Assembly: GCF_017876755.1 (NCBI RefSeq)
Contig: NZ_JAGIOO010000001.1
Location: 3,519,786-3,583,785, forward strand
DNA from: Crossiella equi
Lineage (GTDB): Bacteria; Actinomycetota; Actinomycetes; Mycobacteriales; Pseudonocardiaceae
Direction: 5' to 3'
DNA: 64,000 bases
Shown here: positions 239 through 64,000 of the stretch, piece by piece
Numbering within the stretch: position 1 is the first letter of the stretch
Layout of the letters: each line of letters opens with the position of its first letter
Translations under genes and position numbers: made by a program
The notes under the pieces: model-generated
What the model was told of the DNA's origin: nothing
The model's input: the letters and a program-made list of their open reading frames with translations, nothing else
Databases searched by the model: none

Positions 239-1333
<1,095 letters not shown>

Positions 1334-1381
1334 CCCGGTCAGCGGTTTACAAGGTCGTGACGGTTCTTGAAAATCACCGTC

Positions 1382-2941
1382 ATGGCCCGCTACCTCCGCA
1401 TGCTGCTGAGCCTGCTGCTGGTGGCGCCCCTGCTGGCCTCCGCGCCCGGGGCGGCCACCGCCGCGGCCCTGGCCTGCCCACCGCCCGCCTTCGCCAAGCA
1501 GCAGCTGCGCGGGCTGTGGGTCGCCAGTGTGTCCAACATCAACTGGCCGTCCCGCGCCGGGCTGAGCGTGGCCGCGCAGCAGGCGGAGTACCGGCGGCTG
1601 CTCGACCGCGCCAAGGCGATGCGCTTCAACGCGGTGTTCGTGCAGATCCGGCCCGCCGCGGACGCGTTCTTCCCATCCACCCGTGAGCCCTGGTCGCAGT
1701 ACCTGACCGGTGTGCAGGGCCAGGACCCCGGCTACGACCCGCTCGCCTTCCTGCTCACCGAGGCCAAGGCGCGCGGCCTGGAGTTCCACGGCTGGTTCAA
1801 CCCGTACCGGGTGAGCACCCAGGCCGACCCGAACAAGCTCGTGCCCAGCCACCCCGCGCGGGTCAACCCGGGCTGGCGGGTGGCCTACGGCACGCAGCTG
1901 TACTACAACCCGGGCGTGCCCGCGGTGCGCGCGCACGTGCGCGGGGTGATCAACGACGTGCTGGCCCGCTACGACCTGGACGGCGTGCACTTCGACGACT
2001 ACTTCTACCCGTACCCGGTCGCGGGCAGCGAGTTCCCGGACGAGGCCACCTACCGCCAGTTCGGCGCGGGCTTCGCGGTGAAGGCGGACTGGCGGCGGGA
2101 CAACGTGAACCGGCTCATCCGCGAGGTGGGCGCGGACATCCGGGCGGCCAAGCCGCACGTGGCCTTCGGCGTGAGCCCGTTCGGCGTGTGGCGGGACAAG
2201 CGGCACGACCCGACCGGCTCGGAGACCACCGCCGGGGTGCACAACTACGACGACCTGTACGCCGACACCCGCACCTGGATCCGCAACGCCTGGATCGACT
2301 ACGTGGCGCCGCAGGTCTACTGGAACATCGGCTACCCGCCTGCCGCCTACGACAAGCTGATCCCCTGGTGGGCCAACGAGGTCAGCGGCACCGGGGTGTC
2401 CCTCTACATCGGACAGGGCGCGTACAAGGTGGGTACGGCCAACCCGGCGGCCTGGCTGGACCCCGAGGAGATGCCGAAGCACCTGTCGCTGAACAAGAAC
2501 CACCCCCAGGTCGCGGGCGACATCTACTACAACATCAACAGCGTGTTCGCCAACCCGCTCGGGCTGGCCGACCGGCTCCAGGCCGACCAGCAGCGCTACC
2601 CGGCGCTCATCCCGGTGCGGCCGACCACCGCGGGCGCCGCCCCGGGCACGGTGACCGGGATCCGCGCGCCCGCCGACCCCGCCGGGGGCTACCGCCTGAC
2701 CTGGCAGCCCAGCGCGGGGGCCGCCGCCTACGCCGTCTACCGGCTGCCGGGCCACCAGGTGCCCGGCGAGTGCTCGGTGACCGACCCCGCCGCCCTGCTC
2801 GGCGTGACCCGGAGCCCGACCTTCCACGACCAGGCCGCCCCCGGGGGCACGCTGTTCACCTACCTGGTCACCGCCCTGGACCGCACGCACCGGGAGAGCG
2901 CACCGCGCCCGGTGTGGGTCCCCGAACTCTGGGGGTACTGA
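1382..2941 (+). CDS. Secreted GHL10-type glycoside hydrolase-like protein
   Basis: 519 residues. A signal peptide (ARYLRMLLSLLLVAPLLASA...) is followed by the GHL10/DUF187 barrel: LRGLWVASVSNINWPS, the VQIRPAADAFFPS and WFNPYR blocks and DGVHFDDYFYPYP are family hallmarks (YngK-like proteins). The last ~90 residues look like a fibronectin type III domain. GHL10 proteins are thought to act on cell-wall or exopolysaccharide glycans, but the substrate is unclear. The ATG at 1382 is preferred because it places the basic n-region directly before the hydrophobic core; a TTG at 1367 is the alternative. The next gene starts 3 bp after the stop, so both secreted proteins are probably co-transcribed. 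Confidence 0.88.
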   Translation: MARYLRMLLSLLLVAPLLASAPGAATAAALACPPPAFAKQQLRGLWVASVSNINWPSRAGLSVAAQQAEYRRLLDRAKAMRFNAVFVQIRPAADAFFPSTREPWSQYLTGVQGQDPGYDPLAFLLTEAKARGLEFHGWFNPYRVSTQADPNKLVPSHPARVNPGWRVAYGTQLYYNPGVPAVRAHVRGVINDVLARYDLDGVHFDDYFYPYPVAGSEFPDEATYRQFGAGFAVKADWRRDNVNRLIREVGADIRAAKPHVAFGVSPFGVWRDKRHDPTGSETTAGVHNYDDLYADTRTWIRNAWIDYVAPQVYWNIGYPPAAYDKLIPWWANEVSGTGVSLYIGQGAYKVGTANPAAWLDPEEMPKHLSLNKNHPQVAGDIYYNINSVFANPLGLADRLQADQQRYPALIPVRPTTAGAAPGTVTGIRAPADPAGGYRLTWQPSAGAAAYAVYRLPGHQVPGECSVTDPAALLGVTRSPTFHDQAAPGGTLFTYLVTALDRTHRESAPRPVWVPELWGY

Positions 2942-7556: not shown

Positions 7557-8330
7557 TTAGAGCTTGATGCCCCGTTCGGCCAACCAGGCGCCGGGGTTCA
7601 CCTTTTTGCCGCCTGCCGCCCACACCTCGAAGTGCAGGTGCGGTCCGGTGGACTGGCCGCGGTTGCCCATGGTGGCGATTTGCTCGCCTGCCTGGACCTT
7701 TTGCCCGGCGCGCACCAGCGAGGTGTTGATGTGGCCGTAGACGGTGATGGTGCCGTCGTTGTGCTGGACGCGCACCCACAGGCCGAAACCGCTGGCGGGG
7801 CCGGACTCCACCACGGTGCCCGCGGCGGCCGACAGGATCGGCGTGCCGATCGAGTTGGCGATGTCCACGCCGTAGTGCATGACACCACCGCGCATGCCGT
7901 AGTTGGAGGTGAACCGGCCCTGGGCCGGACGCACGAACGCACCGGTGGCCTTGGACTTCTCCACCGCGGTCGCGGCGCGCTTGGCGGCCTCGGCAGCGGC
8001 CTTCTCGGCCTCCGCCTTGTCCGCGGCGGCCTTCTCCGCCTCGGCGGTCCTGGCCTTCTCCTCATCGGCGATGCGGATGGCCTTGTCGAGCTTCGCGAGC
8101 TCGACGCCGGGGTCGGCGGTGTCCGCCTTGGGCAGCACCGTCGGGGCCTGTCGGGCGACCGCGGCGAGGTTCGCCTGGAGGTCGACCGGCTCGGGGCTGG
8201 CCGAGGCTGCCTGCGTGCTGAGCATGTAGCCGGGAGTGCCGACCAGGACCGTGGTGGTCAGGGCGGCGGCGGCCGTCATCGTTGATCCGCGCCACTTCGG
8301 GGTGGTGGCGCGGGCTCTATGTCGAGCCAA
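7557..8330 (-). CDS. Secreted M23 (LytM-type) peptidoglycan endopeptidase
   Basis: 257 residues. The start is TTG, 11 nt after a GGAAGGA ribosome binding site. Domains: basic n-region and signal helix, a short linker, an Ala/Lys/Glu-rich coiled coil (about residues 78-120), then the M23 domain from about residue 130. Zinc and catalytic residues are present: H-Y-G-V-D (first His and Asp) and HLHFEV (last His). Such proteins cut peptide cross-links in the cell wall or activate amidases. The preceding leader is long and rich in hairpins, which suggests RNA-level control. Confidence 0.9.
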   Translation of the reverse strand: MARHRARATTPKWRGSTMTAAAALTTTVLVGTPGYMLSTQAASASPEPVDLQANLAAVARQAPTVLPKADTADPGVELAKLDKAIRIADEEKARTAEAEKAAADKAEAEKAAAEAAKRAATAVEKSKATGAFVRPAQGRFTSNYGMRGGVMHYGVDIANSIGTPILSAAAGTVVESGPASGFGLWVRVQHNDGTITVYGHINTSLVRAGQKVQAGEQIATMGNRGQSTGPHLHFEVWAAGGKKVNPGAWLAERGIKL

Positions 8331-8480
8331 GACTCGTTGTGTCCTTCCGTCTCGGGGAGCCCGGTCGAGACACCCGGCGGGGGATCCGGGTCTTCGGTGG
8401 ATTCGGGGTCCACCTCAGGTTGTCTCGCGTGACCGAACCGTGACGTTCGGCGGCGACGGTAACCACCAGTGATAACGGGA
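8331..8480 (-). promoter_or_regulatory. Structured 5' leader of the M23 gene; possible riboswitch
   Basis: On the minus strand this leader forms four successive hairpins: CCGAAC/GGTTCGG near 8436-8453, GGTGGA/TCCACC near 8397-8417, GACCCGG/CCGGGTGTC near 8370-8393 and GTCTCG/CGAGAC near 8350-8372, the last competing partly with its neighbour. In Actinobacteria the ydaO-type c-di-AMP riboswitch often precedes cell-wall hydrolase genes of this kind. I could not match its conserved core with confidence, so the class is only a suggestion. Confidence 0.35.
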
Positions 8481-8544
8481 TGCAAGCCTTGGTGGCTCAA
8501 TTCGTCTTGGTTGGTGACGAGTACCACGCGGTAACCACGGAGGG

Positions 8545-9018
8545 TCAGCGGTTGTGCATTGGCCGCAGCCGACGGTGGGTGAGCTGCGGCAACGCTCCCG
8601 AGACCACCGCGAGCCGCCCCAGCGCGGCCAGCACGGCGGGCCCCTCCTCCGGCCCCAAGATCTTCAGGTACCCCTCCCGCACAGCCGCCCGCGCCCGCCT
8701 CGCCGCGGCCACCGCGCCCCGCCCGCGCCCGGTCAGCTCGACCAGCCTGCTGCGCCGGTCCCGGCCCACCTCCCGCCGGACGTAGCCCAGCCCCTCGAGC
8801 TCGGCGACGATCTTGGACACGCCCTGCGCGGTCATGCCCATCCGCTCGGCCAGCACGGAGATCGGCATCGGGGCCACGAGCAGGTGCTGGAACAGGTACC
8901 CGTGTGAGCGCCGCAGCCCGTGGTAGCCCTCGTCCTCCACCCGCAGCACCACCTCGTCGTCGGCCGCGGCGGACAGCGCGGTGAGCAGCAGGACCGGGTC
9001 CTCACTCGGGTGCAGCAC
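8545..9018 (-). CDS. MarR-family transcriptional regulator
   Basis: 157 residues with the MarR winged helix: PMPISVLAERMGMTAQGVSKIVAELEGLGYV is the helix-turn-helix and RREVGRDRRSRLVELTGRG the wing. The start is GTG with a GGAGGG ribosome binding site four bases upstream. It is divergent from the serine hydrolase gene, and the 55-bp gap between them holds two inverted repeats that probably bind this regulator, so it likely represses both genes and itself. Confidence 0.9.
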   Translation of the reverse strand: MLHPSEDPVLLLTALSAAADDEVVLRVEDEGYHGLRRSHGYLFQHLLVAPMPISVLAERMGMTAQGVSKIVAELEGLGYVRREVGRDRRSRLVELTGRGRGAVAAARRARAAVREGYLKILGPEEGPAVLAALGRLAVVSGALPQLTHRRLRPMHNR

Positions 9019-9036
9019 AGTCCCTCCAGCAGATGC

Positions 9037-9073
9037 TCAACCAGGGTTGCGTAACCGTGGTTGAATAATAACC
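9037..9073. promoter_or_regulatory. Double inverted repeat, candidate MarR operator
   Basis: Positions 9037-9064 form a 28-bp palindrome with arms TCAACCA...TGGTTGA and inner arms GGTT-GCGT-AACC. Overlapping it, 9059-9073 reads GGTTGAATAATAACC, a second palindrome ending at the ATG. It is AT-rich against the surrounding sequence and lies exactly between the divergent MarR and serine-hydrolase starts, as expected for an autoregulatory MarR operator. Confidence 0.65.
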
Positions 9074-10162
9074 ATGCATCTCGACGGTCAGTGCGATCCG
9101 GCGTTCGCCCAGGTCCGCGAGGCCTTCGCGGAAGGGCTGACCAACGGGGAGGACCTCGGGGCCGCGGTGTCGGTGCGCGTGGGCGGTCGGACCGTGGTCG
9201 ACCTGTGGGGCGGCGGCTGGCGGCCGGACACCGTGGTGAACCTGTTCTCGGCGACCAAGGGCGTGCTGGCGGCCTGCGCGCACCGGCTGGTCCGGGCCGG
9301 GCAGCTGGACCCGGAGGCGCCGGTGGCCCGGTACTGGCCGGAGTTCGCCGCCCGGGACAAGGGCGGGACCACGGTGGCGCAGCTGCTCGCGCACCAGGCG
9401 GGCCTGCCCGCGCTGCGGGTGCGGCAGCCGCCGGGCTCGCTGTACGACTGGGCGCACATGACCGCCGTGCTGGCCGCCGAACAGCCCTGGTGGCGCACCA
9501 CGGGGCAGCACGGCTACCACGGCGTGACCTGGGGCTGGCTGGCCGGGGAGCTGCTCCGCCGGGTCTCCGGGCGCACCCCGCGCGAGCTGGTCGCCGCCCT
9601 GGGCCTGGACCTGCACGTCGGGCTGCCCGCCGAGCACCTGCACCGCGTCGTCCGGATCACCTCCGCGCCCGTGGGGCATCCCGCGCCCGGCGAGCCCGGC
9701 CACGAGTTCTTCGCCGCGATGGTCCGGGCCGGGTCGATGACGCACCTGGCCTTCCTCAACCCGCCCGATCTGCTGACCCCCGAGGTGATGAACTCCCCCG
9801 CCTGGCGCGCGGCCGAGATCCCCGCCGCGAACGGGCACGGCAACGCCCGCGCGCTCGCCGAGCTGTACGCCGGGCTGGCGCGGCCCGGCGGGCCCCGGCC
9901 GGTGGCGCGCGCCGACGGGCACGACGAGGTGCTGCTCGGGCACACGCGGTTCGGGGAGGGGTTCATGCTGCCCGGGGAGATCCGGCCGTTCTCACCCAAC
10001 CCGGAGGCGTTCGGGCACCCCGGGGCCGGGGGCGCGCTCGGCTTCGCCGACCCGGCGGCGGAACTGGGCTTCGGGTTCACCCCGGACCGGACGATCGCCA
10101 CCCCGCACGGGCCCGACCCGCGCTGGCGGCGCATCGTGCCCGCCGTGTACGCCTGCCTGTAG
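9074..10162 (+). CDS. Class C beta-lactamase-fold serine hydrolase (EstB type)
   Basis: 362 residues without a signal peptide. The catalytic SxxK is SATK in NLFSATKGVLAACAHRL; the second motif Tyr lies in GYHGVTWGWLAGELLRR. Cytoplasmic members of this family are esterases or peptidases rather than beta-lactamases. The ATG sits directly after the MarR operator with no obvious ribosome binding site, so translation may be leaderless. The substrate is unknown; a MarR-controlled esterase may deal with a small aromatic or lactone compound. Confidence 0.85.
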   Translation: MHLDGQCDPAFAQVREAFAEGLTNGEDLGAAVSVRVGGRTVVDLWGGGWRPDTVVNLFSATKGVLAACAHRLVRAGQLDPEAPVARYWPEFAARDKGGTTVAQLLAHQAGLPALRVRQPPGSLYDWAHMTAVLAAEQPWWRTTGQHGYHGVTWGWLAGELLRRVSGRTPRELVAALGLDLHVGLPAEHLHRVVRITSAPVGHPAPGEPGHEFFAAMVRAGSMTHLAFLNPPDLLTPEVMNSPAWRAAEIPAANGHGNARALAELYAGLARPGGPRPVARADGHDEVLLGHTRFGEGFMLPGEIRPFSPNPEAFGHPGAGGALGFADPAAELGFGFTPDRTIATPHGPDPRWRRIVPAVYACL

Positions 10163-56304: not shown

Positions 56305-57609
56305 CTAGCGCAGGCTTGTGCCCTCGGTCTCCGGCAGCAAGAGGGCCAGCAGCGCGGTCACCGCGAGGAAGGCGTTGATGATCAACATGATCGGGGTGAA
56401 CCCGCTGGTCTGGGCGAGCAGCACGCCGATCACCGAGGGCGCGACCGCGCTGGCCAGCAGCTGCACGCCGACCGAGGCGGAGGCGCCGGTACCGCGTGCG
56501 GCGGTCGGGTAGAACTCGCCGTTCCAGGTGTTCCACACGCCCCAGGCGCCGAGGCTGAAGAAGGCCAGGGTGAAGTTGCCGAGGTAGAGCTGGGCGGGCG
56601 AGTCGGCGGCGGCGAAGACGAACCCGCCGACGCAGGCCAGCACGACGTAGGCGAGGAAGACCGGGCGGCGGCCGTGGCGGGCGGTGAGCCAGGAGGCGCT
56701 GAGGTAGCCGGGGATCATCATCACGGCGCTGAGCGCGGCGAAGGCGAGCGAGCCGTCCAGGCTGAGGCCGCGCTGCTGGACCAGGGTGGGCAGCCAGTTC
56801 TGCAGGCCCCAGTAGCCCCAGGCGAAGGTGAAGTTGATCAGCAGCGCGGGCACCGCGACCCGGGCCAGGCCGCCCCGGAACAGGTCCAGCGGGTTGCCGA
56901 CCCGGCCGCCGCCGGTGGTCAGCTCGGCGTCGGCGTCCGGGCTGGCCAGGGTGTGCAGCACCTGCCGCGCCCGCTCGTGCTGCCCGCGCGCGACGAGCCA
57001 GTACGGCGACTCCGGCACCACCGCGCGCAGGACGAACGCCCAGGCCCCCACCGCCGCGGCGGCCACCAGCAGCTGCAGGCTCCAGTCCCGGATCAGCGCG
57101 GAGGCCCCGATCGCGAGCAGCAGCCCGACCGGCCACCCCATGGACAGCACGACCGCGGCGGCACCCCGGTGCTTGGTGGGCATGAGCTCCAGGAAGTACG
57201 GGAAGGTGATCGTGTACACCCCGGCGAAGGCCAGCCCGGCGAGCACGCGCAGCCCCACGAGCACGGTGGCGTCCGGCGCGAACGAGCACAGCGCGGCCAG
57301 CACCGCGTAGGCCAGCATGGACACCGTGCAGGCGCGACCACGCCCGATCCGGTCGGCCACCGGCCCCCACAGGAACGCCCCGGGGATCATGCCGAAGGAC
57401 AGTGCGGACAACACCAGCCCCACCTGGGCGTCGTCCAGCCCGAGCGAGGCCTTGAGGTCCCCCTGCACGTACACCAGGGACACCACCTCCCAGGAGTCCA
57501 GCACGAACGCGCCGAACAGCGCGGCGGCGAGCGCCCAGTGCCTGCGGGTGAACGGCATCCGGTCGAACGCGGCGCCCACCGGGGTGGCGAGCGGTTCGGC
57601 GGTGGACAT
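56305..57609 (-). CDS. MFS transporter (aromatic acid/sugar:H+ type)
   Basis: 434 residues, 12 membrane helices. DSWEVVSLVYVQGDLKASLGLDDAQVGL, motif A GPVADRIGRGRACTVS, FAGVYTITFPYFLELMPTKHRG and ASLVWAS-type C-terminal repeats. The D...D residues in helix 1 and the PTKHRG loop suggest the sugar/aromatic acid porter family. ATG 57609 with GAGGAG seven bases upstream. Substrate unknown. Confidence 0.88.
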   Translation of the reverse strand: MSTAEPLATPVGAAFDRMPFTRRHWALAAALFGAFVLDSWEVVSLVYVQGDLKASLGLDDAQVGLVLSALSFGMIPGAFLWGPVADRIGRGRACTVSMLAYAVLAALCSFAPDATVLVGLRVLAGLAFAGVYTITFPYFLELMPTKHRGAAAVVLSMGWPVGLLLAIGASALIRDWSLQLLVAAAAVGAWAFVLRAVVPESPYWLVARGQHERARQVLHTLASPDADAELTTGGGRVGNPLDLFRGGLARVAVPALLINFTFAWGYWGLQNWLPTLVQQRGLSLDGSLAFAALSAVMMIPGYLSASWLTARHGRRPVFLAYVVLACVGGFVFAAADSPAQLYLGNFTLAFFSLGAWGVWNTWNGEFYPTAARGTGASASVGVQLLASAVAPSVIGVLLAQTSGFTPIMLIINAFLAVTALLALLLPETEGTSLR

Positions 57610-57714
57610 GGGGCTCCTCACGCAGGGTGTCGGCGGGGTCACCGAAGATACGGGGTCCCTTGCCACTCCCCGGTGCCTGGATTACCGTCCAGCGCACGAT
57701 CCTGGGGGGATTCC

Positions 57715-58359: not shown

Positions 58360-58429
58360 TCGGAGGATTGTCCGCATTCGCCCGGCCCGGTGGGATCAGG
58401 GGCCCGCCACCACTGGGAAGGGCGTGTGC

Positions 58430-59671
58430 ATGGGCCTGAGGGCGTGGACGGTCACCGGCATGCTGGTGGTCTTCACCGTGATCAACTGGGCGGACAAGTC
58501 GATCCTGGGGCTGGCCGCCGAGCCCTTGATGGCGGAGCTGCGGATCAGTCCGGCCGAGATGGGGTTCATCGGCAGCTCGTTCTTCTTCCTGTTCAGCGTC
58601 ACCGGGATCCTGGTCGGGTTCCTGGCCGACCGGGTGCGGGCGCAGTGGGTGCTGGTGGCCTTGGCCGCCGCGTGGTCGCTCACCCAGGTGCCGGTGTTGC
58701 TGTCCGCCACCGGGACCACGTTGCTGGTCAGCCGGATCGCCCTCGGGGCGGCGGAGGGTCCGGCCATGTCGATGGCCTTGGCCAGCGCGTACACCTGGTT
58801 CCCGCCCGAGCGGCGGGCGCTGCCCAGTGCCTGGATCACCGCCGGGTCCTCGATCGCGAAGATCGCGGTGGCGCCCGCGCTGACCTTCCTCATCGTGGCC
58901 TTCGGGTGGCGGGCCGCGTTCCTCGCGCTGGTGGCGCTCGGTGTGGTGTGGGGCCTGCTGTGGCTGGTGCTCGGCGGGGACGGGCCGCTGCGCCCCGAGC
59001 GGCGGCGGATCGTGGTGCCGTTCCGGCGGATCGGCCTCACCCGCACGTTCACCGGGGCGGTGCTGGCCACGGCCCCGATGTACGCCCTGGTGTCCACGCT
59101 GCTGACCTGGCTGCCCTCCTACCTCGAGAAGTCGCTGGGCTTCACGCGCGTGCAGGCCGGGGTGATGTTCGGGCTGCCCAGCATCTCCTCGATCGTGGTC
59201 ATGGTCGGCGTCTCCGCGGTCAGTGACCGCCTGCTGCGCCGGGGTGCCAGCAGCCGCACCGCGCGCGGGCGGCTCAGCGCGCTCGGCCTGCTGCTCGGCG
59301 GCGGCCTGCTGGTGCTGGTGCCGTTGCTGGAGCAGCGTTGGCTGGCGCTGGCCGTGGTGGTCCTCGGCTACGGCATCGGCGTGGTGGTCTTCCCGCTGAC
59401 CACGGCCGCGGTCTCCCAGCTCGCGCCCGCCGGTCAGCAGGCCAGCACGGTCGGGGTGTTCACCGGCCTGTACAGCCTGGCGGGCCTGGTCGGGCCGTGG
59501 CTGACCGGCCTCCTGGTCGCCGCCTCGCCCACCGAGGGCTTCGAGCAGGCCTTCCAGCTGTTCGGCCTCGTCGCCGCGCTGGGCGGGCTGGCCGCGTGGT
59601 GGCTGGTCGACCCCGAGCGCGACGCGGTGCGGGAGCGACAGCCGGTGGTCGGCGCGGCCACGGCCGCGTAG
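58430..59671 (+). CDS. MFS transporter, possible exporter of the polyamine cassette
   Basis: 413 residues, 12 membrane helices. FTVINWADKSILGLAAEPLMAELRISPAEMGFIGSSFFF is typical of the ACS/NarK-like anion:cation group; motif A is degenerate (FLADRVRAQWVLVAL). ATG 58430 is favoured because GGGAAGG lies eight bases upstream. It ends 50 bp before the BpsA gene on the same strand, so it may export the cassette product. Confidence 0.88.
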   Translation: MGLRAWTVTGMLVVFTVINWADKSILGLAAEPLMAELRISPAEMGFIGSSFFFLFSVTGILVGFLADRVRAQWVLVALAAAWSLTQVPVLLSATGTTLLVSRIALGAAEGPAMSMALASAYTWFPPERRALPSAWITAGSSIAKIAVAPALTFLIVAFGWRAAFLALVALGVVWGLLWLVLGGDGPLRPERRRIVVPFRRIGLTRTFTGAVLATAPMYALVSTLLTWLPSYLEKSLGFTRVQAGVMFGLPSISSIVVMVGVSAVSDRLLRRGASSRTARGRLSALGLLLGGGLLVLVPLLEQRWLALAVVVLGYGIGVVVFPLTTAAVSQLAPAGQQASTVGVFTGLYSLAGLVGPWLTGLLVAASPTEGFEQAFQLFGLVAALGGLAAWWLVDPERDAVRERQPVVGAATAA

Positions 59672-59677
59672 CGCACC

Positions 59678-59725
59678 TATACTCGACCGATCATGCGGAT
59701 CAGCACGGGTGGCGACCCATCGTGA
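59678..59725 (+). promoter_or_regulatory. Promoter with leaderless uORF before the BpsA gene
   Basis: A -10 box TATACT (59678-59683) would start transcription at about 59690-59693, where ATG 59693 opens an 11-codon frame (MRISTGGDPS, stop TGA 59723-59725). That stop overlaps the GTG start of the next gene in another frame, so translation of the two could be coupled. Sequence seen; function inferred. Confidence 0.45.
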
Positions 59726-60894
59726 GCACGCAGGGCAACGAGGTACTGGCCGAGATCGCCGAGGCGGTGCGGCTCCAGGAGGGCCCCGCCGGGGTGCGCG
59801 CGGTGGTCCGCGCGTTCCGGCAGATCGGCCCCGCCTCCACCAGGGACGTGAGCAGGCACACCGGGTTGCCGGTGCCGATCGTGGCCGCGGTGGGCAACGA
59901 GCTGAGGCGGCACGGGCTGCTCGGCGAGCAGCGGCCGTCCCGGCTCACCGACGCCGGGCTGGACCTGATCGCCGACCTCGGCATGGGCCTGGACCTGGAC
60001 ACCGACTGCTCCCGGTGCGGCGGGCTGGAGATCCCCATCCCGCGCGTGCTCCAGGAGGCCGTTGAGCAGCTGCGGCGCATCTCCGCCGCCGGGCCCGGCG
60101 CCGACCTGGCCCTGGACCAGTCGCACTGCACCGCCGAGACCAAGGTGCGGCGTGTGCTCGCGCTCATCCGCGCGGGTGTGCTGCCCGGGTCCTCGGTGCT
60201 GCTGGTGGGCGATGACGACCAGGTGTCCATCGCGATCGCGGTGGTCGAGCAGGCGCTCGGGGTGCGGCTGGTGTCGCGCCTGGCGGTCGCCGACATCTCC
60301 GACGAGGTGCTCGACTTCATCGCCGACACCGCGTCCACAATGGACTTCCGGGTGGACCTGGCCAAGCACGACCTGCGCGAACCGCTGCCGGAGCGCCTGC
60401 TCGGCCAGTTCGACGCGGCCATGACCGACCCGCCGTACACCCCCGAGGGCGCGCGGCTGTTCCTGTCCCGGGCCGTCGAGGGCCTGCGGCCGGGGCCCGC
60501 GCAGAGCATCTTCTTCTCCTTCGGCGCCAAGGGCCCGGACGAGATGCTGGCCGTGCAGCAGGAGATCCTCGGGCTGAACCTGGTCACGCACAGCCTGATC
60601 CGCAACTTCAACGAGTACCAGGGCAGCGGCATCCTGGGCGGCACCGGCTTCTTCCAGCACCTGCTGACCACCGAGGCCACCGCGTCCTCGGTGCCGGGGC
60701 TGTTCGAGGGCCCGCTGTACACCCGGGAGAAGCGCAGCCGCCTGCGCGAGTACGAGTGCGGCTCCTGCGGCGCGCTGTTCCCGGTCGGCGCGGGCGCGGA
60801 GTGGAACTCGGTGGCCGACCTGCGGGCCAACGGCTGCCCGAAGTGCGGCAAGGGCCCGTTCCGGCCGCGCCAGCTGATCGCGGAGGGATCGTGA
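59722..60894 (+). CDS. bpsA: N4-bis(aminopropyl)spermidine synthase family protein (BpsA/DUF43)
   Basis: 390 residues. A winged-helix-like N-terminus with a CxxC (DCSRCGG), then the BpsA Rossmann domain: SVLLVGDDDQVSIAI (GDDD motif), FDAAMTDPPYTPEGARLFLSRAVEGL (DPPYT motif), and FNEYQGSGILGGTGFFQHLL. A C-terminal zinc ribbon CGSCGALF...CPKCGKG ends the protein. Characterised BpsA (Thermococcus, Thermus) adds aminopropyl groups from decarboxylated AdoMet to spermidine, giving branched polyamines; the actinobacterial substrate is unknown. GTG start; overlaps the GNAT gene by 4 bp. Confidence 0.88.
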   Translation: MSTQGNEVLAEIAEAVRLQEGPAGVRAVVRAFRQIGPASTRDVSRHTGLPVPIVAAVGNELRRHGLLGEQRPSRLTDAGLDLIADLGMGLDLDTDCSRCGGLEIPIPRVLQEAVEQLRRISAAGPGADLALDQSHCTAETKVRRVLALIRAGVLPGSSVLLVGDDDQVSIAIAVVEQALGVRLVSRLAVADISDEVLDFIADTASTMDFRVDLAKHDLREPLPERLLGQFDAAMTDPPYTPEGARLFLSRAVEGLRPGPAQSIFFSFGAKGPDEMLAVQQEILGLNLVTHSLIRNFNEYQGSGILGGTGFFQHLLTTEATASSVPGLFEGPLYTREKRSRLREYECGSCGALFPVGAGAEWNSVADLRANGCPKCGKGPFRPRQLIAEGS

Positions 60895-61355
60895 CCGGGT
60901 TCACCGTGCGCCGGGCGGTCGAGTCCGATCTGCCGCGGCTGGCCGAGTTCGAGGCCGAGATCGCGCGCATCTCCTTCCAGGAGGACGCGATCATCGACCT
61001 GGACGTGCAGGAGCGCAAGATCGGCAAGGCCATGGCCAAGACCCCGGACGGCATGTTCGTGGCCTGCCGGGGCGAGGAGCCCGCGCAGGGCTGGCTGTGG
61101 ATCACGGTCAACACCAACTCGATGAGCGGGCAGCGCTACGCCAACTTCCGCTCGCTCGCGGTCGCGGAGATCCCCGAGCGCACGGCCATCGGCGAGCAGC
61201 TGCTCCAGGCCGGGCTGGACTTCGTCGACGAGCACGGTGTCGAGGAGGTGGTCGGCAAGGTGTTCTCCGGCAACCTGCCCATGCGCGTGCTGTACCGCCA
61301 GTTCGGCTTCGAGGCCGCGCACCTGACCATGAAGCTCGACCGGCGGAAGCGGTAG
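60891..61355 (+). CDS. GNAT-family acetyltransferase
   Basis: 154 residues. TVRRAVESDLPRLAEFEAEIARISFQEDAI, YANFRSLAVAEIPERTAIGEQLLQAG (acyl-CoA binding motif, non-canonical), VGKVFSGNLPMRVLYRQFGFEAAHLTMKL. GTG start overlaps the BpsA stop. It may acylate the amine or work with the ACP. Confidence 0.88.
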   Translation: MTGFTVRRAVESDLPRLAEFEAEIARISFQEDAIIDLDVQERKIGKAMAKTPDGMFVACRGEEPAQGWLWITVNTNSMSGQRYANFRSLAVAEIPERTAIGEQLLQAGLDFVDEHGVEEVVGKVFSGNLPMRVLYRQFGFEAAHLTMKLDRRKR

Positions 61356-62399
61356 ATGCCGGTCAAGTGCGTGGTGTGGGACCTGGACGGCACGCTGTGG
61401 GACGGCGTGGCCGTCGAGCAGGCCGTCGAGGTGCTGCCCTCGCCCAAGCCCGAGGTGCTCGCGGTGATCGACGAGCTGGCCGCGCGCGGTGTGCTGAGCA
61501 GCGTGGCCAGCCGCACCGACCCGTCCATCCTGGCGCTGCTGCTGGCCGACGAGCCCCTGGCTGAGCGGTTCGTGGCCCCGCAGGCGGACTGGCAGGACAA
61601 GAGCGCGGCGCTGCGCAAGATCAGCGAGGAGCTGGGCATCGGTCTGGACGCCCTGGCCTTCGTCGACGACAACCCGTACGAGCGCGCCGAGGTGGCCGCG
61701 ACGCTGCCCGAGGTGCTGGTGCTGGCCCCGGACGAGGCGCCCGGCCTGCTGGCCTCCCCCGAGCTCGACCCGGCCACGCTGACCCCGGAGGCCCGGGGCC
61801 GGGTACGCCGGTACCGCGAGGAGGCCCGGCGCAAGGGCGCGGAGGCCGGGTTCACCGGCTCGCGCCCGGACTTCCTGCGCTGGTGCGACATGCGTCTCAC
61901 ACTGCGGGCGGCCACCGAGGCCGATGTGCCGCGCGTGGTGGAGCTGGCGCGGCGCACGCACCGGATGAACACCACCGGCGACGTGCCGCCCGTGGCGGAC
62001 GTGCTGGCCCGGCTGGCCGACCCCGGCCGGTGGTTCCTGCCGGTGGCCGAGCTCACCGACCGGTTCGGCACCTACGGGCTGATCGGCTCGGCCCTGGTCG
62101 AACGGCTGCCGGACCTGTGGCACGTGCGCTTGCTCGCGCTGTCCTGCCGGGTGGCCGGACGCGGGGTGGCCCCGGCGTTCCTGCGCTGGGTGATGGACCG
62201 GGCGCTGACCGCCGGTGCGCCGGAGCTGCGCGTCCCGGTGCGGCCGACCGGCGCGAACATCGAGCTGCGGGTGCTGTTCCGCCAGTGCGGGCTGCGCGTG
62301 ACCGGGCCGCAGCCCGAGGGCCTGGCGGTGCTGGGCCGCCGCCTGGACGACGGTGCGCTGCCCGCCTACCCCGAGTACCTGACCGTGGAGAAGACATGA
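61356..62399 (+). CDS. FkbH-like HAD / acyltransferase protein
   Basis: 347 residues. N-terminal HAD-IIIC domain: VVWDLDGTLWDG (motif I), SVASRTDPS, WQDKSAALRKI, AFVDDNPYERAEV. The C-terminal ~170 residues are the GNAT-like domain with RTHRMNTTGDV in place of the family's R-T-N-Q-F-N block. FkbH proteins dephosphorylate 1,3-bisphosphoglycerate and load glyceryl onto an ACP. Starts directly after the GNAT stop and overlaps the ACP gene by 4 bp, as in fkbHJ pairs. Confidence 0.87.
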   Translation: MPVKCVVWDLDGTLWDGVAVEQAVEVLPSPKPEVLAVIDELAARGVLSSVASRTDPSILALLLADEPLAERFVAPQADWQDKSAALRKISEELGIGLDALAFVDDNPYERAEVAATLPEVLVLAPDEAPGLLASPELDPATLTPEARGRVRRYREEARRKGAEAGFTGSRPDFLRWCDMRLTLRAATEADVPRVVELARRTHRMNTTGDVPPVADVLARLADPGRWFLPVAELTDRFGTYGLIGSALVERLPDLWHVRLLALSCRVAGRGVAPAFLRWVMDRALTAGAPELRVPVRPTGANIELRVLFRQCGLRVTGPQPEGLAVLGRRLDDGALPAYPEYLTVEKT

Positions 62400-62659
62400 G
62401 CGTCGAGGCCGAGATCCGGGGCCTGCTGGCCGAGGCGGTGGGACAGGACCGCGCGGCGGTCGACGCCCTGCCCGCGAGCACCGAGCTGTTCTCGCCGCAG
62501 GTCGCGCTGAGCTCGCTGGCCGGGCTGAAGCTGCTCAGCGCGATCAAGGACCGGTTCGGCGTGGACGTGGCCGACGAGGACATGAACCTCGACTCGCTGG
62601 AGTCGATCGCCACCCTGGTGGCCTTCGTCCGGGCGCGCGTGTCAGCGGACCGCGCGTAG
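62396..62659 (+). CDS. Acyl carrier protein
   Basis: 87 residues with a four-helix ACP pattern: helix II starts at LSSLAGLKLLSAIKDRFGVDV, then EDMNLDSLESIATLVAFV for helix III-IV. The phosphopantetheine serine should be Ser40; the residue before it is Ser39 instead of the usual Asp (LSSL instead of DSL). The preceding gene is FkbH-like, so the expected load is a C3 unit such as glyceryl. The 3' end overlaps the convergent speD gene by 18 bp. Confidence 0.87.
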   Translation: MSVEAEIRGLLAEAVGQDRAAVDALPASTELFSPQVALSSLAGLKLLSAIKDRFGVDVADEDMNLDSLESIATLVAFVRARVSADRA

Positions 62660-63007
62660 CAGCCTGGACACGTTGATCCGGGCCGTCGGCAGCGCGGTCT
62701 CGATGCGCTCGAGCATGGTCTCGGCGTTGATCCGGCCATAGGCGAGCAGGTCGATGTTGGCCAGGCTGAACTCCGGCCAGGTGTGAATGCTCAGGTGCGA
62801 TTGCGAGAGCACCAGGACAGCCGTCACCGCGCCATTGGGGAAGACGTGCTTGGTCTCACCCAGGACATTCGCGTTTCCGGCCTTCGCCGCGGTACGCAGA
62901 ATGTCCAGCAAGGCGTGCTCATCGGTGAGAATCGCGGGGTCGGTGACCCACACGTCCACCGCATAAGAGCACAGTTCGTCCACCTGGACCTCTGACGGTT
63001 CGGTCAT
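62642..63007 (-). CDS. speD: SpeD homologue with altered active site
   Basis: 121 residues. SHLSIHTWPE with Ser70 and His75 is the pyruvoyl-forming core of prokaryotic AdoMet decarboxylase. Against the Thermotoga enzyme numbering I recall (E62, S63, H68, C83), the residue before Ser is Gln69 rather than Glu, and the catalytic Cys is Tyr90 (LLAYG in place of FTCG). Self-cleavage at Ser70 is plausible; AdoMet decarboxylation is doubtful. Some SpeD homologues are reported to decarboxylate arginine or ornithine instead. Convergent with the ACP gene. Confidence 0.85.
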   Translation of the reverse strand: MTEPSEVQVDELCSYAVDVWVTDPAILTDEHALLDILRTAAKAGNANVLGETKHVFPNGAVTAVLVLSQSHLSIHTWPEFSLANIDLLAYGRINAETMLERIETALPTARINVSRLLRAVR

Positions 63008-63123: not shown

Positions 63124-63303
63124 TCAGTACCTGTCTTGGTAACGATCGTCGCTGTCGTCGAACCTGTCGTCGGTGGCCTGACGGCCTCCGGTCGACGCTC
63201 CGGACAGCTCCCGCTGCAAGGCCTCAAGGTCCGCCGTCGGCGAGCTGTACTTCAGCTCCCGAGCGACTTTCGCCTGCTTGGCCTTAGCTCGGCCGCGCCC
63301 CAT
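63124..63303 (-). CDS. DUF3073 family protein
   Basis: 59 residues. GRGRAKAKQAKVARELKYSSPTADLEALQREL is the DUF3073 signature, followed by an acidic DDSDDRYQDRY tail. A small actinobacterial protein of unknown function, often coded alone. ATG 63303. Confidence 0.9.
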   Translation of the reverse strand: MGRGRAKAKQAKVARELKYSSPTADLEALQRELSGASTGGRQATDDRFDDSDDRYQDRY

Positions 63304-63470
63304 GGCTCGACCCCCTCGTACCGGGGCAGGGCGGTCGGTGTCCCGACAGACCCCGCTCGACTCGTATTTGTCCTGGCCGCAGCATACCTGGTGCGCAGAG
63401 CGGAGCAAGCACGCATACCCCACGATCATGGCGCGGGCCGGGCTGGTACAACGGTCGGCTTCAACCTTCC

Positions 63471-64000
63471 TCAGGCAGGTTGCGCCGACCGGGCGGTGTG
63501 GCGTACCCACGGCCAGGTCATCAGCGACCACGCTCCGGCAAGCAGCGCATAGCCGACAAACAGGTACCAGGGCCAGCCGCCCATCAGGTCAAGAAGTGAC
63601 CCGACCGGGGGCTTTTCGCTGAGGAATCCGTAGTTGGTCCCGGCGAGGGCGTTGAACCCGGACACGACAAGGGCCCACACGGCCGTGACCAGCAGCGTGA
63701 ATCGGTAACTCCGCCAGTCCGGCCGCAGCTTGAGCCCCCAGGTCAGGAATATCGCGGCCCACACCATGAAAATGTGCTGGCCCCAGAACATGAGGAATCC
63801 GAAGCTCGGGAAGTCCTCCCCGCTGAGGGCGGGTGTGAGCAGGGCCTGGGGCGTCAGGACGAGGTTCCAGTAGTAGGTCAGGGCCAGGGCCCACCACCGG
63901 TGCGTCCAGAGGGCCACGACGGCCGAGATCCAGGCCAGGTCGGAGAGCTGGAAGGGCAGCGAGTGCCCGATGCCGAACTCCGAGGGCAGCAGCGTCCACA
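63471..64000 (-). CDS. YwaF-like (TIGR02206) membrane protein, 5' end beyond window
   Basis: The frame is open to the window edge and continues as LLPSEFGIGHSLPFQLSDLAWISAVVALWTHRWW, a block typical of this family, so the start lies outside. About 176 residues are visible: five or six membrane helices, with WGQHIFMVWAAIFLTWGLKLRPDWRSY and GLAGTNYGFLSEKPPVGSLLDLMGGWPWYLF. Function unknown. Confidence 0.88.
   Translation of the reverse strand, partial: WTLLPSEFGIGHSLPFQLSDLAWISAVVALWTHRWWALALTYYWNLVLTPQALLTPALSGEDFPSFGFLMFWGQHIFMVWAAIFLTWGLKLRPDWRSYRFTLLVTAVWALVVSGFNALAGTNYGFLSEKPPVGSLLDLMGGWPWYLFVGYALLAGAWSLMTWPWVRHTARSAQPA

Follow-up and report, generated by a model that had tools for sequence, protein, structure and literature searches.

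A 64,000-nucleotide stretch of the 9.44 Mb genome of the actinomycete Crossiella equi (the window, in what follows) carries a cassette of genes encoding a BpsA-like aminopropyltransferase, a GNAT N-acyltransferase, an FkbH-like protein, an acyl carrier protein (ACP) and, facing them, a homologue of the pyruvoyl-type S-adenosylmethionine (AdoMet) decarboxylase SpeD. Judged from their sequences and conservation, the five almost certainly serve one pathway, and it is well supported that they constitute one evolutionary and probably functional unit. The cassette joins two known kinds of chemistry, namely polyamine building that depends on decarboxylated AdoMet (dcSAM) and the loading of a C3 acid by FkbH and ACP. 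A serious if tentative candidate for its product is an aminopropylated amine carrying an N-acyl group, in the likeliest case an N-glyceroyl polyamine. An earlier note on this DNA had singled out these genes, together with a major facilitator superfamily (MFS) transporter before them, as a previously undescribed polyamine-acyl carrier cassette. Its observation of the gene set is confirmed and turns out stronger than it was stated, and its interpretation as a whole is partly supported. All six genes that it named are present in the places it gave, with small boundary corrections from the sequence, and the polyamine half (SpeD and BpsA) stands together with the FkbH-ACP half, as it had said.

Gene Junctions and Conserved Order

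The genes for BpsA, GNAT, FkbH and ACP overlap or abut, and by their junctions they are translationally coupled, which bears out the earlier description. The BpsA stop and GNAT start share a 4-base GTGA overlap, the FkbH ATG stands directly 3′ of the GNAT TAG, and the FkbH stop and ACP start overlap in ATGA. The SpeD gene, which the note had described as facing the set, does so: it converges on the ACP gene, and the two 3′ ends overlap by 18 bases.

Relatives were sought in a sample of 297 genomes of the family, using the window BpsA protein and the window SpeD protein as queries. A close relative of BpsA (at least 69% identity) occurs in nine of them, followed by genome G210 at 42% and by weaker matches in 182 others, such that 192 of the 297 contain some match. 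BpsA, GNAT, FkbH and ACP are consecutive in all nine close genomes, and G210 has BpsA-GNAT-FkbH. Close relatives of SpeD (at least 73%) occur in exactly the nine genomes that have a close BpsA, with G210 next at 38% and the rest weaker. In four of the nine, SpeD is located elsewhere in the genome, yet the co-occurrence with BpsA holds. Since the nine genomes belong to only three genera, they stand for fewer independent events than their number.

The cassette extends beyond the family, recurring in distantly related soil actinomycetes. A scan of the contigs of 84,980 species, limited to two peptide patterns, returned 17 loci, 16 of them cassette-like, in Crossiella, Allokutzneria, Goodfellowiella coeruleoviolacea, four Streptomyces species, Actinokineospora enzanensis, one Stackebrandtia metagenome-assembled genome (MAG) and five other Actinomycetota MAGs. 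The BpsA match at locus L096 (32% over 155 residues) was not counted as a cassette BpsA, and paralogues with a GDHD motif were likewise excluded. Samples of the order and the phylum added the loci of G304, G317 and G641, G806, G749. The cassette is rare: a close BpsA was present in 4 of 397 order genomes (E <1e-100) and in 4 of 396 phylum genomes (E ≤1e-50), both counts including the window's own genome, with four candidates scored per genome. In all, 25 cassette-type BpsA loci were collected, 21 of them readable in full and the others, from S. niveiscabiei (L095) and three MAGs (L087, L091, L093), cut by contig ends.

The four genes stand together in 19 of these 21 fully readable loci, with GNAT between BpsA and FkbH in every one of the 19, and the order recurs in Crossiella, Allokutzneria, Goodfellowiella, Streptomyces, Stackebrandtia, two Actinomycetota MAGs and further genomes of the order and class. 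In one more, that of Actinokineospora, the set is split over two contigs, BpsA-GNAT-FkbH on one and an ACP-SpeD fusion on the other. The neighbourhood comparison that the earlier note had proposed, of whether relatives hold these genes only apart, therefore came out in favour of the set. The SpeD gene adjoins the cassette, in several orientations, in Allokutzneria, Streptomyces, Stackebrandtia, G304, G317 and G749 as it does in the window, and also on four of five MAG contigs. The four other Crossiella genomes have it elsewhere, with none of the remaining cassette genes in the surrounding 10 kb or so; in Goodfellowiella it is found on the same contig, about 9 kb downstream of ACP.

No wider conserved cluster emerged when open reading frames (ORFs) of at least 55 aa were compared over the 25 loci, which represent 12 lineages (an earlier comparison covered 21 loci and ORFs of at least 80 aa): no family beyond the cassette genes recurs in more than three lineages. 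The same limit of three lineages would apply to any polyketide synthases (PKS) or methoxymalonyl-type dehydrogenases as partners; family-library scans of flanking genes covered the window only. The families that reach three lineages are an MFS family, a short DUF3073 protein, one family of Crossiella, S. actinomycinicus and G749, and one of Actinokineospora, MAG DX2 and g54. Several more occur in two lineages each, such as those flanking the cassette in both Crossiella and Allokutzneria, or in two of the MAGs; this fits a chromosomal context that the lineages have in common.

Gene Fusions and Trees

Two kinds of gene fusion, judged by a common frame and the absence of stops, tie members of the set together. 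BpsA and GNAT form a single ORF, joined by a Pro/Ala-rich linker, in 6 of the 16 loci tested (Goodfellowiella, S. acidiscabies, S. actinomycinicus, S. aurantiogriseus, G641 and G806), and are separate in the other 10. ACP and SpeD form a single ORF in both loci tested, those of Stackebrandtia and Actinokineospora. An apparent FkbH-ACP fusion in G641 and G806, which had surfaced as long ORFs in a hidden Markov model search, was rejected, the two genes being in different frames. Conserved order, co-occurrence and these fusions rule out chance neighbours, and the earlier claim that the genes belong together is upheld on the same three grounds.

FkbH, SpeD and BpsA of the cassette each yield a clade of their own. 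Cassette FkbH proteins (17 rows) separate from 16 FkbH paralogues with support of 98/93, cassette SpeD proteins (21 rows) from canonical SpeD with 98/92, and cassette BpsA proteins (21 rows) from eight paralogues with 100/100. The SpeD and BpsA trees both carry long-branch warnings; L158 was left out of the SpeD tree, which included no proven ornithine or arginine decarboxylase of the SpeD family. Within its clade, cassette SpeD splits into a Tyr type (13 rows, the window's among them) and a Cys type (8 rows), named after the residue at the catalytic Cys position, and the FkbH tree splits in the same manner among shared hosts. The two trees place G749 differently: by its SpeD it joins the Tyr clade (96/89), by its BpsA it joins G304/G317 (81/81).

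The BpsA-Like Protein

The predicted fold of the window BpsA (predicted local distance difference test score 86) has as its best match in the PDB the BpsA of Thermococcus kodakarensis (Tk), 5xnc, with an E value of 2.9e-24 and a TM-score of 0.53; at this TM-score, with its high root-mean-square deviation, the domain placement differs or is uncertain. The protein bears the motifs GDDD and TDPPY and, in its C-terminal part, a zinc-ribbon-like CxxC...CxxC pattern. According to a review (PMC12979288), the GDDD motif is what places dcSAM. It is retained in 21 of 21 cassette rows and is replaced by GDHD in the eight paralogues read. Alignment and a count by hand give counterparts in the window protein for Tk Asp159, Asp160, Asp225 and Tyr290, in the numbering of that review. 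The cassette BpsA thus shares with the enzymes of T. kodakarensis and Thermus thermophilus the BpsA_C family, the best fold match, the GDDD motif and the counterparts of Asp225 and Tyr290. It differs from them in having a zinc-ribbon-like end in place of the acidic cluster, in being encoded with or fused to a GNAT, and in occurring here in actinomycetes such as Streptomyces. Pfam Zn_ribbon_8 scores 20.2 bits on the window protein, under its cut-off of 34.4. The GDHD proteins, about 540 aa long, belong to a second family of BpsA_C paralogues, exemplified in Table 1.

GNAT, FkbH and ACP

In canonical GNAT proteins, motif A supplies a loop of the form [QR]xxGx[GA] that holds the pyrophosphate of coenzyme A (CoA). 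At this position all 21 cassette GNAT rows instead read Rxx[hydrophobic]x[ED]; the canonical pattern occurs at other positions in four of the 21, the window's among them. The best fold matches in the PDB are aminoglycoside and polyamine N-acetyltransferases, including DpA and SSAT. With the latter two, whose acceptors are amines, the cassette protein shares the GNAT fold, and they rank among its best structural matches; it differs from them in lacking the canonical CoA loop at motif A and in being encoded with FkbH and ACP.

Both FkbH and ACP look intact in sequence. The window FkbH has the HAD motifs DLDGT, K and VDD and the C-terminal SCRVAGRG, and the HAD and SCR motifs are kept in 17 of 17 rows. 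The candidate attachment site of the ACP is Ser40, within ALSSLAG in the window, and the Ser is kept in 20 of 20 rows. FkbH proteins working with an ACP or carrier domain are known as glycerate loaders of polyketide and peptide pathways (PMC7489565, PMC10099666, PMC13122637). The cassette resembles such loaders of the tetronate, methoxymalonyl and glyceryl-peptide pathways, for example tetromadurin mad7/mad8 (PMC7489565), in placing FkbH beside a free-standing ACP, in exceeding the TIGR01686 cut-off and in retaining the HAD and SCR motifs. It departs from them in its conserved partners, which are BpsA, GNAT and SpeD, not a PKS, a nonribosomal peptide synthetase (NRPS) or dehydrogenases, and in having an FkbH clade of its own.

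The SpeD Homologue and the Supply of dcSAM

Alignment to the AdoMet decarboxylase of Thermotoga maritima, and to relatives of the window SpeD, shows that the latter keeps the processing Ser70 (in QSH) and His75, and has Tyr90 at the position of the catalytic Cys, Cys83 in the T. maritima enzyme. The Tyr-type clade is hosted by Crossiella, Allokutzneria, Goodfellowiella and Streptomyces. The Cys type keeps the Glu-Ser-His and Cys of AdoMet decarboxylase and includes both ACP-SpeD fusions. On the NCBIfam equivalog TIGR03330 the window protein reaches 73.8 bits, just under the cut-off of 75.65. Compared with class 1b SpeD and its ornithine and arginine decarboxylase derivatives, the cassette protein has in common the Pfam family over its cut-off, the processing Ser and the His; it differs in the substitutions of the Tyr-type clade, in missing the TIGR03330 cut-off and in its fusion to ACP in two lineages. 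As a lead only, a Cys close to the N-terminus (in LCSYAVD) recurs in 11 aligned Tyr-type rows and is absent from G749.

In 11 of 21 host genomes searched for the AdoMet_dc family, namely Goodfellowiella, all three named Streptomyces genomes examined and seven more, the cassette-type SpeD is the sole match. No other source of dcSAM is visible in these hosts, an argument that the cassette SpeD still decarboxylates AdoMet, perhaps with Tyr as the acid, though it may have another substrate. All 11 host genomes searched for the spermidine-synthase family have a match that exceeds the cut-off: Stackebrandtia, G304 and the Streptomyces genomes score strongly, Goodfellowiella weakly, at 27.6 bits against 22.9. 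The window genome itself also has a canonical SpeD-SpeE pair elsewhere.

A Proposed Pathway and Its Alternatives

From the folds, motifs and family precedents above, a four-step scheme can be drawn. The SpeD homologue would decarboxylate AdoMet to dcSAM, and BpsA, by its fold and motifs, would use dcSAM to aminopropylate an amine, for example putrescine, spermidine or agmatine. Following the precedent of its family, FkbH would take D-1,3-bisphosphoglycerate, remove the phosphate and load glycerate on the phosphopantetheine of the ACP. The GNAT would then take the glyceryl group from the ACP, not from CoA, and form an amide with the aminopropylated amine, a role suggested by its place in the set, its fold and its missing CoA loop.

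Several observations weigh against this scheme. Of the 21 cassette-clade SpeD rows, 13, the window's included, have Tyr for the catalytic Cys, and the other eight keep the Cys; in the Tyr type, moreover, Gln or Ala replaces the Glu that precedes the processing Ser. With both substitutions, AdoMet decarboxylase activity is uncertain. Ten of the 21 host genomes have two AdoMet_dc matches, and given a second SpeD and a spermidine synthase in hosts, the dcSAM of the cassette SpeD need not serve BpsA alone. On the side of BpsA, Tk Glu259 has no clear counterpart in the alignment of the window protein, and all 16 rows compared in the C-terminal part have the zinc-ribbon-like CxxC...CxxC there. The acidic C-terminal cluster, which carries the aminopropyl group in T. 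kodakarensis BpsA, was not found, although the alignments to solved BpsA structures stop short of that region and carriers elsewhere in the protein are possible. The fold matches of the GNAT belong to a very large superfamily. MAG contig L093 has no SpeD in the 1.5 kb before BpsA. Finally, in G749 SpeD overlaps BpsA, and profile searches of this 96% complete genome found no GNAT or FkbH match beside BpsA or elsewhere, which means that the two halves can part. Eight cassette-free genomes of the family served as controls for these searches: their GNAT matches reached 2e-7 at best, and five of the eight contained FkbH relatives at 1e-88 or better, which is unsurprising for a family that takes part in many pathways. 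The arrangement in G749 suggests SpeD-BpsA as one half of the cassette and GNAT-FkbH-ACP as an added half.

Conceivably, the unusual decarboxylase acts on something other than AdoMet. It might have turned to the decarboxylation of ornithine or arginine and so yield putrescine or agmatine, to be extended by BpsA with dcSAM from the canonical SpeD and then acylated by the GNAT. Neofunctionalised SpeD proteins with these activities do exist, Actinomycetota included (PMC10407285), and the canonical SpeD-SpeE pair of the window genome could furnish the dcSAM. Against this, Goodfellowiella, the three Streptomyces genomes and the seven other single-match hosts offer no second AdoMet_dc match, and the SpeD tree is without placed proven members of either activity; the proposal seems unlikely. 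Alternatively, the substrate might be bound to the carrier: FkbH would load another acyl phosphate, such as aspartyl or glutamyl, SpeD would decarboxylate the ACP-bound amino acid to beta-alanyl- or GABA-ACP (GABA, gamma-aminobutyric acid), the GNAT would transfer it to an amine, and BpsA would use dcSAM from a canonical SpeD or some other donor. Decarboxylation of carrier-bound glutamate is known from butirosin. Such a route would make sense of ACP and SpeD being one protein in Actinokineospora and Stackebrandtia and of the Tyr at the catalytic Cys position in one SpeD clade, and genomes with two SpeD genes have in other cases indicated SpeD homologues of novel decarboxylase activity (PMC10407285). 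However, BpsA would then lack dcSAM in the 11 hosts with a single AdoMet_dc match, G749 keeps SpeD-BpsA without GNAT or FkbH, the Glu-Ser-His and Cys of AdoMet decarboxylase are intact in the very clade to which both ACP-SpeD fusions belong, and the FkbH precedents cited above concern glycerate. Taken together, this makes a carrier-bound amino acid rather improbable.

Two further alternatives leave the decarboxylase as it is and change the acceptor or the acyl donor. BpsA might act on an ACP-bound acyl group or another non-polyamine acceptor, the product being an aminopropylated small acid in place of a polyamine amide. The GNAT-BpsA fusion in six loci and the ACP-SpeD fusion in two are compatible with this, as is the zinc-ribbon-like end that stands where the acidic cluster was sought and could bind a partner. 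Yet the counterparts of the Tk polyamine-site residues Asp225 and Tyr290 are kept, and polyamine acetyltransferases are among the fold matches of the GNAT, which leaves a non-polyamine acceptor equally improbable. The GNAT, for its part, might simply use acetyl-CoA to give an acetylated polyamine, with FkbH and ACP serving a separate product; it does exceed the Acetyltransf_1 cut-off and has an ordinary fold. This is the least probable of the four, given a GNAT gene that lies between BpsA and FkbH in all contiguous loci and a motif A that lacks the CoA phosphate loop in every row.

The MFS Gene and Other Neighbours

The earlier note had placed an MFS exporter before the set. The MFS gene is there, 50 bases upstream of BpsA; its membership of the set did not hold, and it is no more than a possible exporter. 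It was rejected as a core member in that only three of five Crossiella genomes have a relative of it less than 2 kb from BpsA, directly before BpsA in the window alone and about 1.7 kb away, with one gene between, in G055 and G108; none was found near the other loci searched. Its best NCBIfam subfamily is the galactonate-type TIGR00893, far under the cut-off.

Other neighbours are listed in Table 1. A second MFS gene of the window is present in all five Crossiella genomes, and MFS genes weakly similar to it (26-27% identity) lie near the cassette in Stackebrandtia (L094) and in a MAG (L091). The short DUF3073 gene adjoins the cassette in five Crossiella and three Allokutzneria genomes and adjoins SpeD in Goodfellowiella and S. 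actinomycinicus; it was not found at the other loci searched, and it may mark a shared insertion site or be a sixth, optional gene. Before BpsA, where the window has its MFS gene, two other Crossiella genomes encode a membrane-anchored protein that resembles, by eye, a phosphate-type substrate-binding protein. Actinokineospora, MAG DX2 and the genus of G304/G317 share a four-member ORF family, located near the cassette or the ACP-SpeD fusion. Lastly, all five Crossiella genomes have a gene for a TMEM164-related integral membrane acyltransferase close to the cassette; it was not found at the other loci searched.

Table 1. Genes of the cassette, its neighbours and related features. Positions are those of the window unless a locus (L) is named; families of window proteins were called against curated Pfam and NCBIfam cut-offs.
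Feature	Position	Strand	Family match or remark
BpsA-like aminopropyltransferase, 390 aa, GTG start	59722-60894	+	BpsA_C 126.8 bits (cut-off 27), 1.1e-36
GNAT N-acyltransferase, 154 aa, GTG start	60891-61355	+	Acetyltransf_1 29.4 bits (cut-off 20.7)
FkbH-like protein, 347 aa, ATG start	61356-62399	+	TIGR01686 213.1 bits (cut-off 146.65)
ACP, 87 aa	62396-62659	+	PP-binding 28.1 bits (cut-off 20.8)
SpeD homologue, 121 aa, pyruvoyl-type AdoMet decarboxylase family	62642-63007	-	AdoMet_dc 81.5 bits (cut-off 25)
MFS transporter	58424-59671	+	MFS_1 175.8 bits (cut-off 33.4), 1.5e-51; optional neighbour
Second MFS transporter	56305-57666	-	
Short DUF3073 protein	63124-63315	-	
TMEM164-related acyltransferase	63471-63998	-	PF14808, TIGR02206
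DUF3073 gene, by locus	L033-L037; L076 9095-9217; L082, L083; L086 8796-8897		
Substrate-binding-like protein	L033 11496-13046; L036 about 7590-9270		before BpsA
Four-member ORF family	L127 4509-5513; L128 11965-12447; L077 6081-7796; L090 4202-5182		
BpsA_C paralogue, about 540 aa (example)	L002 (G000:C1:3785401-3788958), ORF 1078-2721		GDHD, not GDDD, in the eight rows read

Implications

The earlier note knew of no such pathway, and a search of the open PMC literature agrees: among the matches listed, none describes the cassette or its pathway, with most subscription papers and every bioRxiv preprint lying outside that search. Nor did any paper found link the two chemistries that the cassette brings together. 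Being a conserved set without a PKS, an NRPS or a synthetase, it may be overlooked by genome miners. It also poses two questions of enzymology: that of a SpeD which has no catalytic Cys and is yet the sole AdoMet_dc match of its genome, as in Goodfellowiella and all three named Streptomyces genomes examined, and that of a GNAT which may draw its acyl group from a carrier protein. More speculatively, ACP-dependent polyamine acylation could be a new class of pathway, fed by a glycolytic intermediate loaded on the ACP and built on a CoA-independent GNAT, a zinc-ribbon BpsA and a Tyr-type pyruvoyl decarboxylase, through which Crossiella, Allokutzneria, Streptomyces and other actinomycetes might make N-glyceroyl or other C3-acyl polyamines. 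If true, the cassette would be a compact route to new acyl-polyamines.

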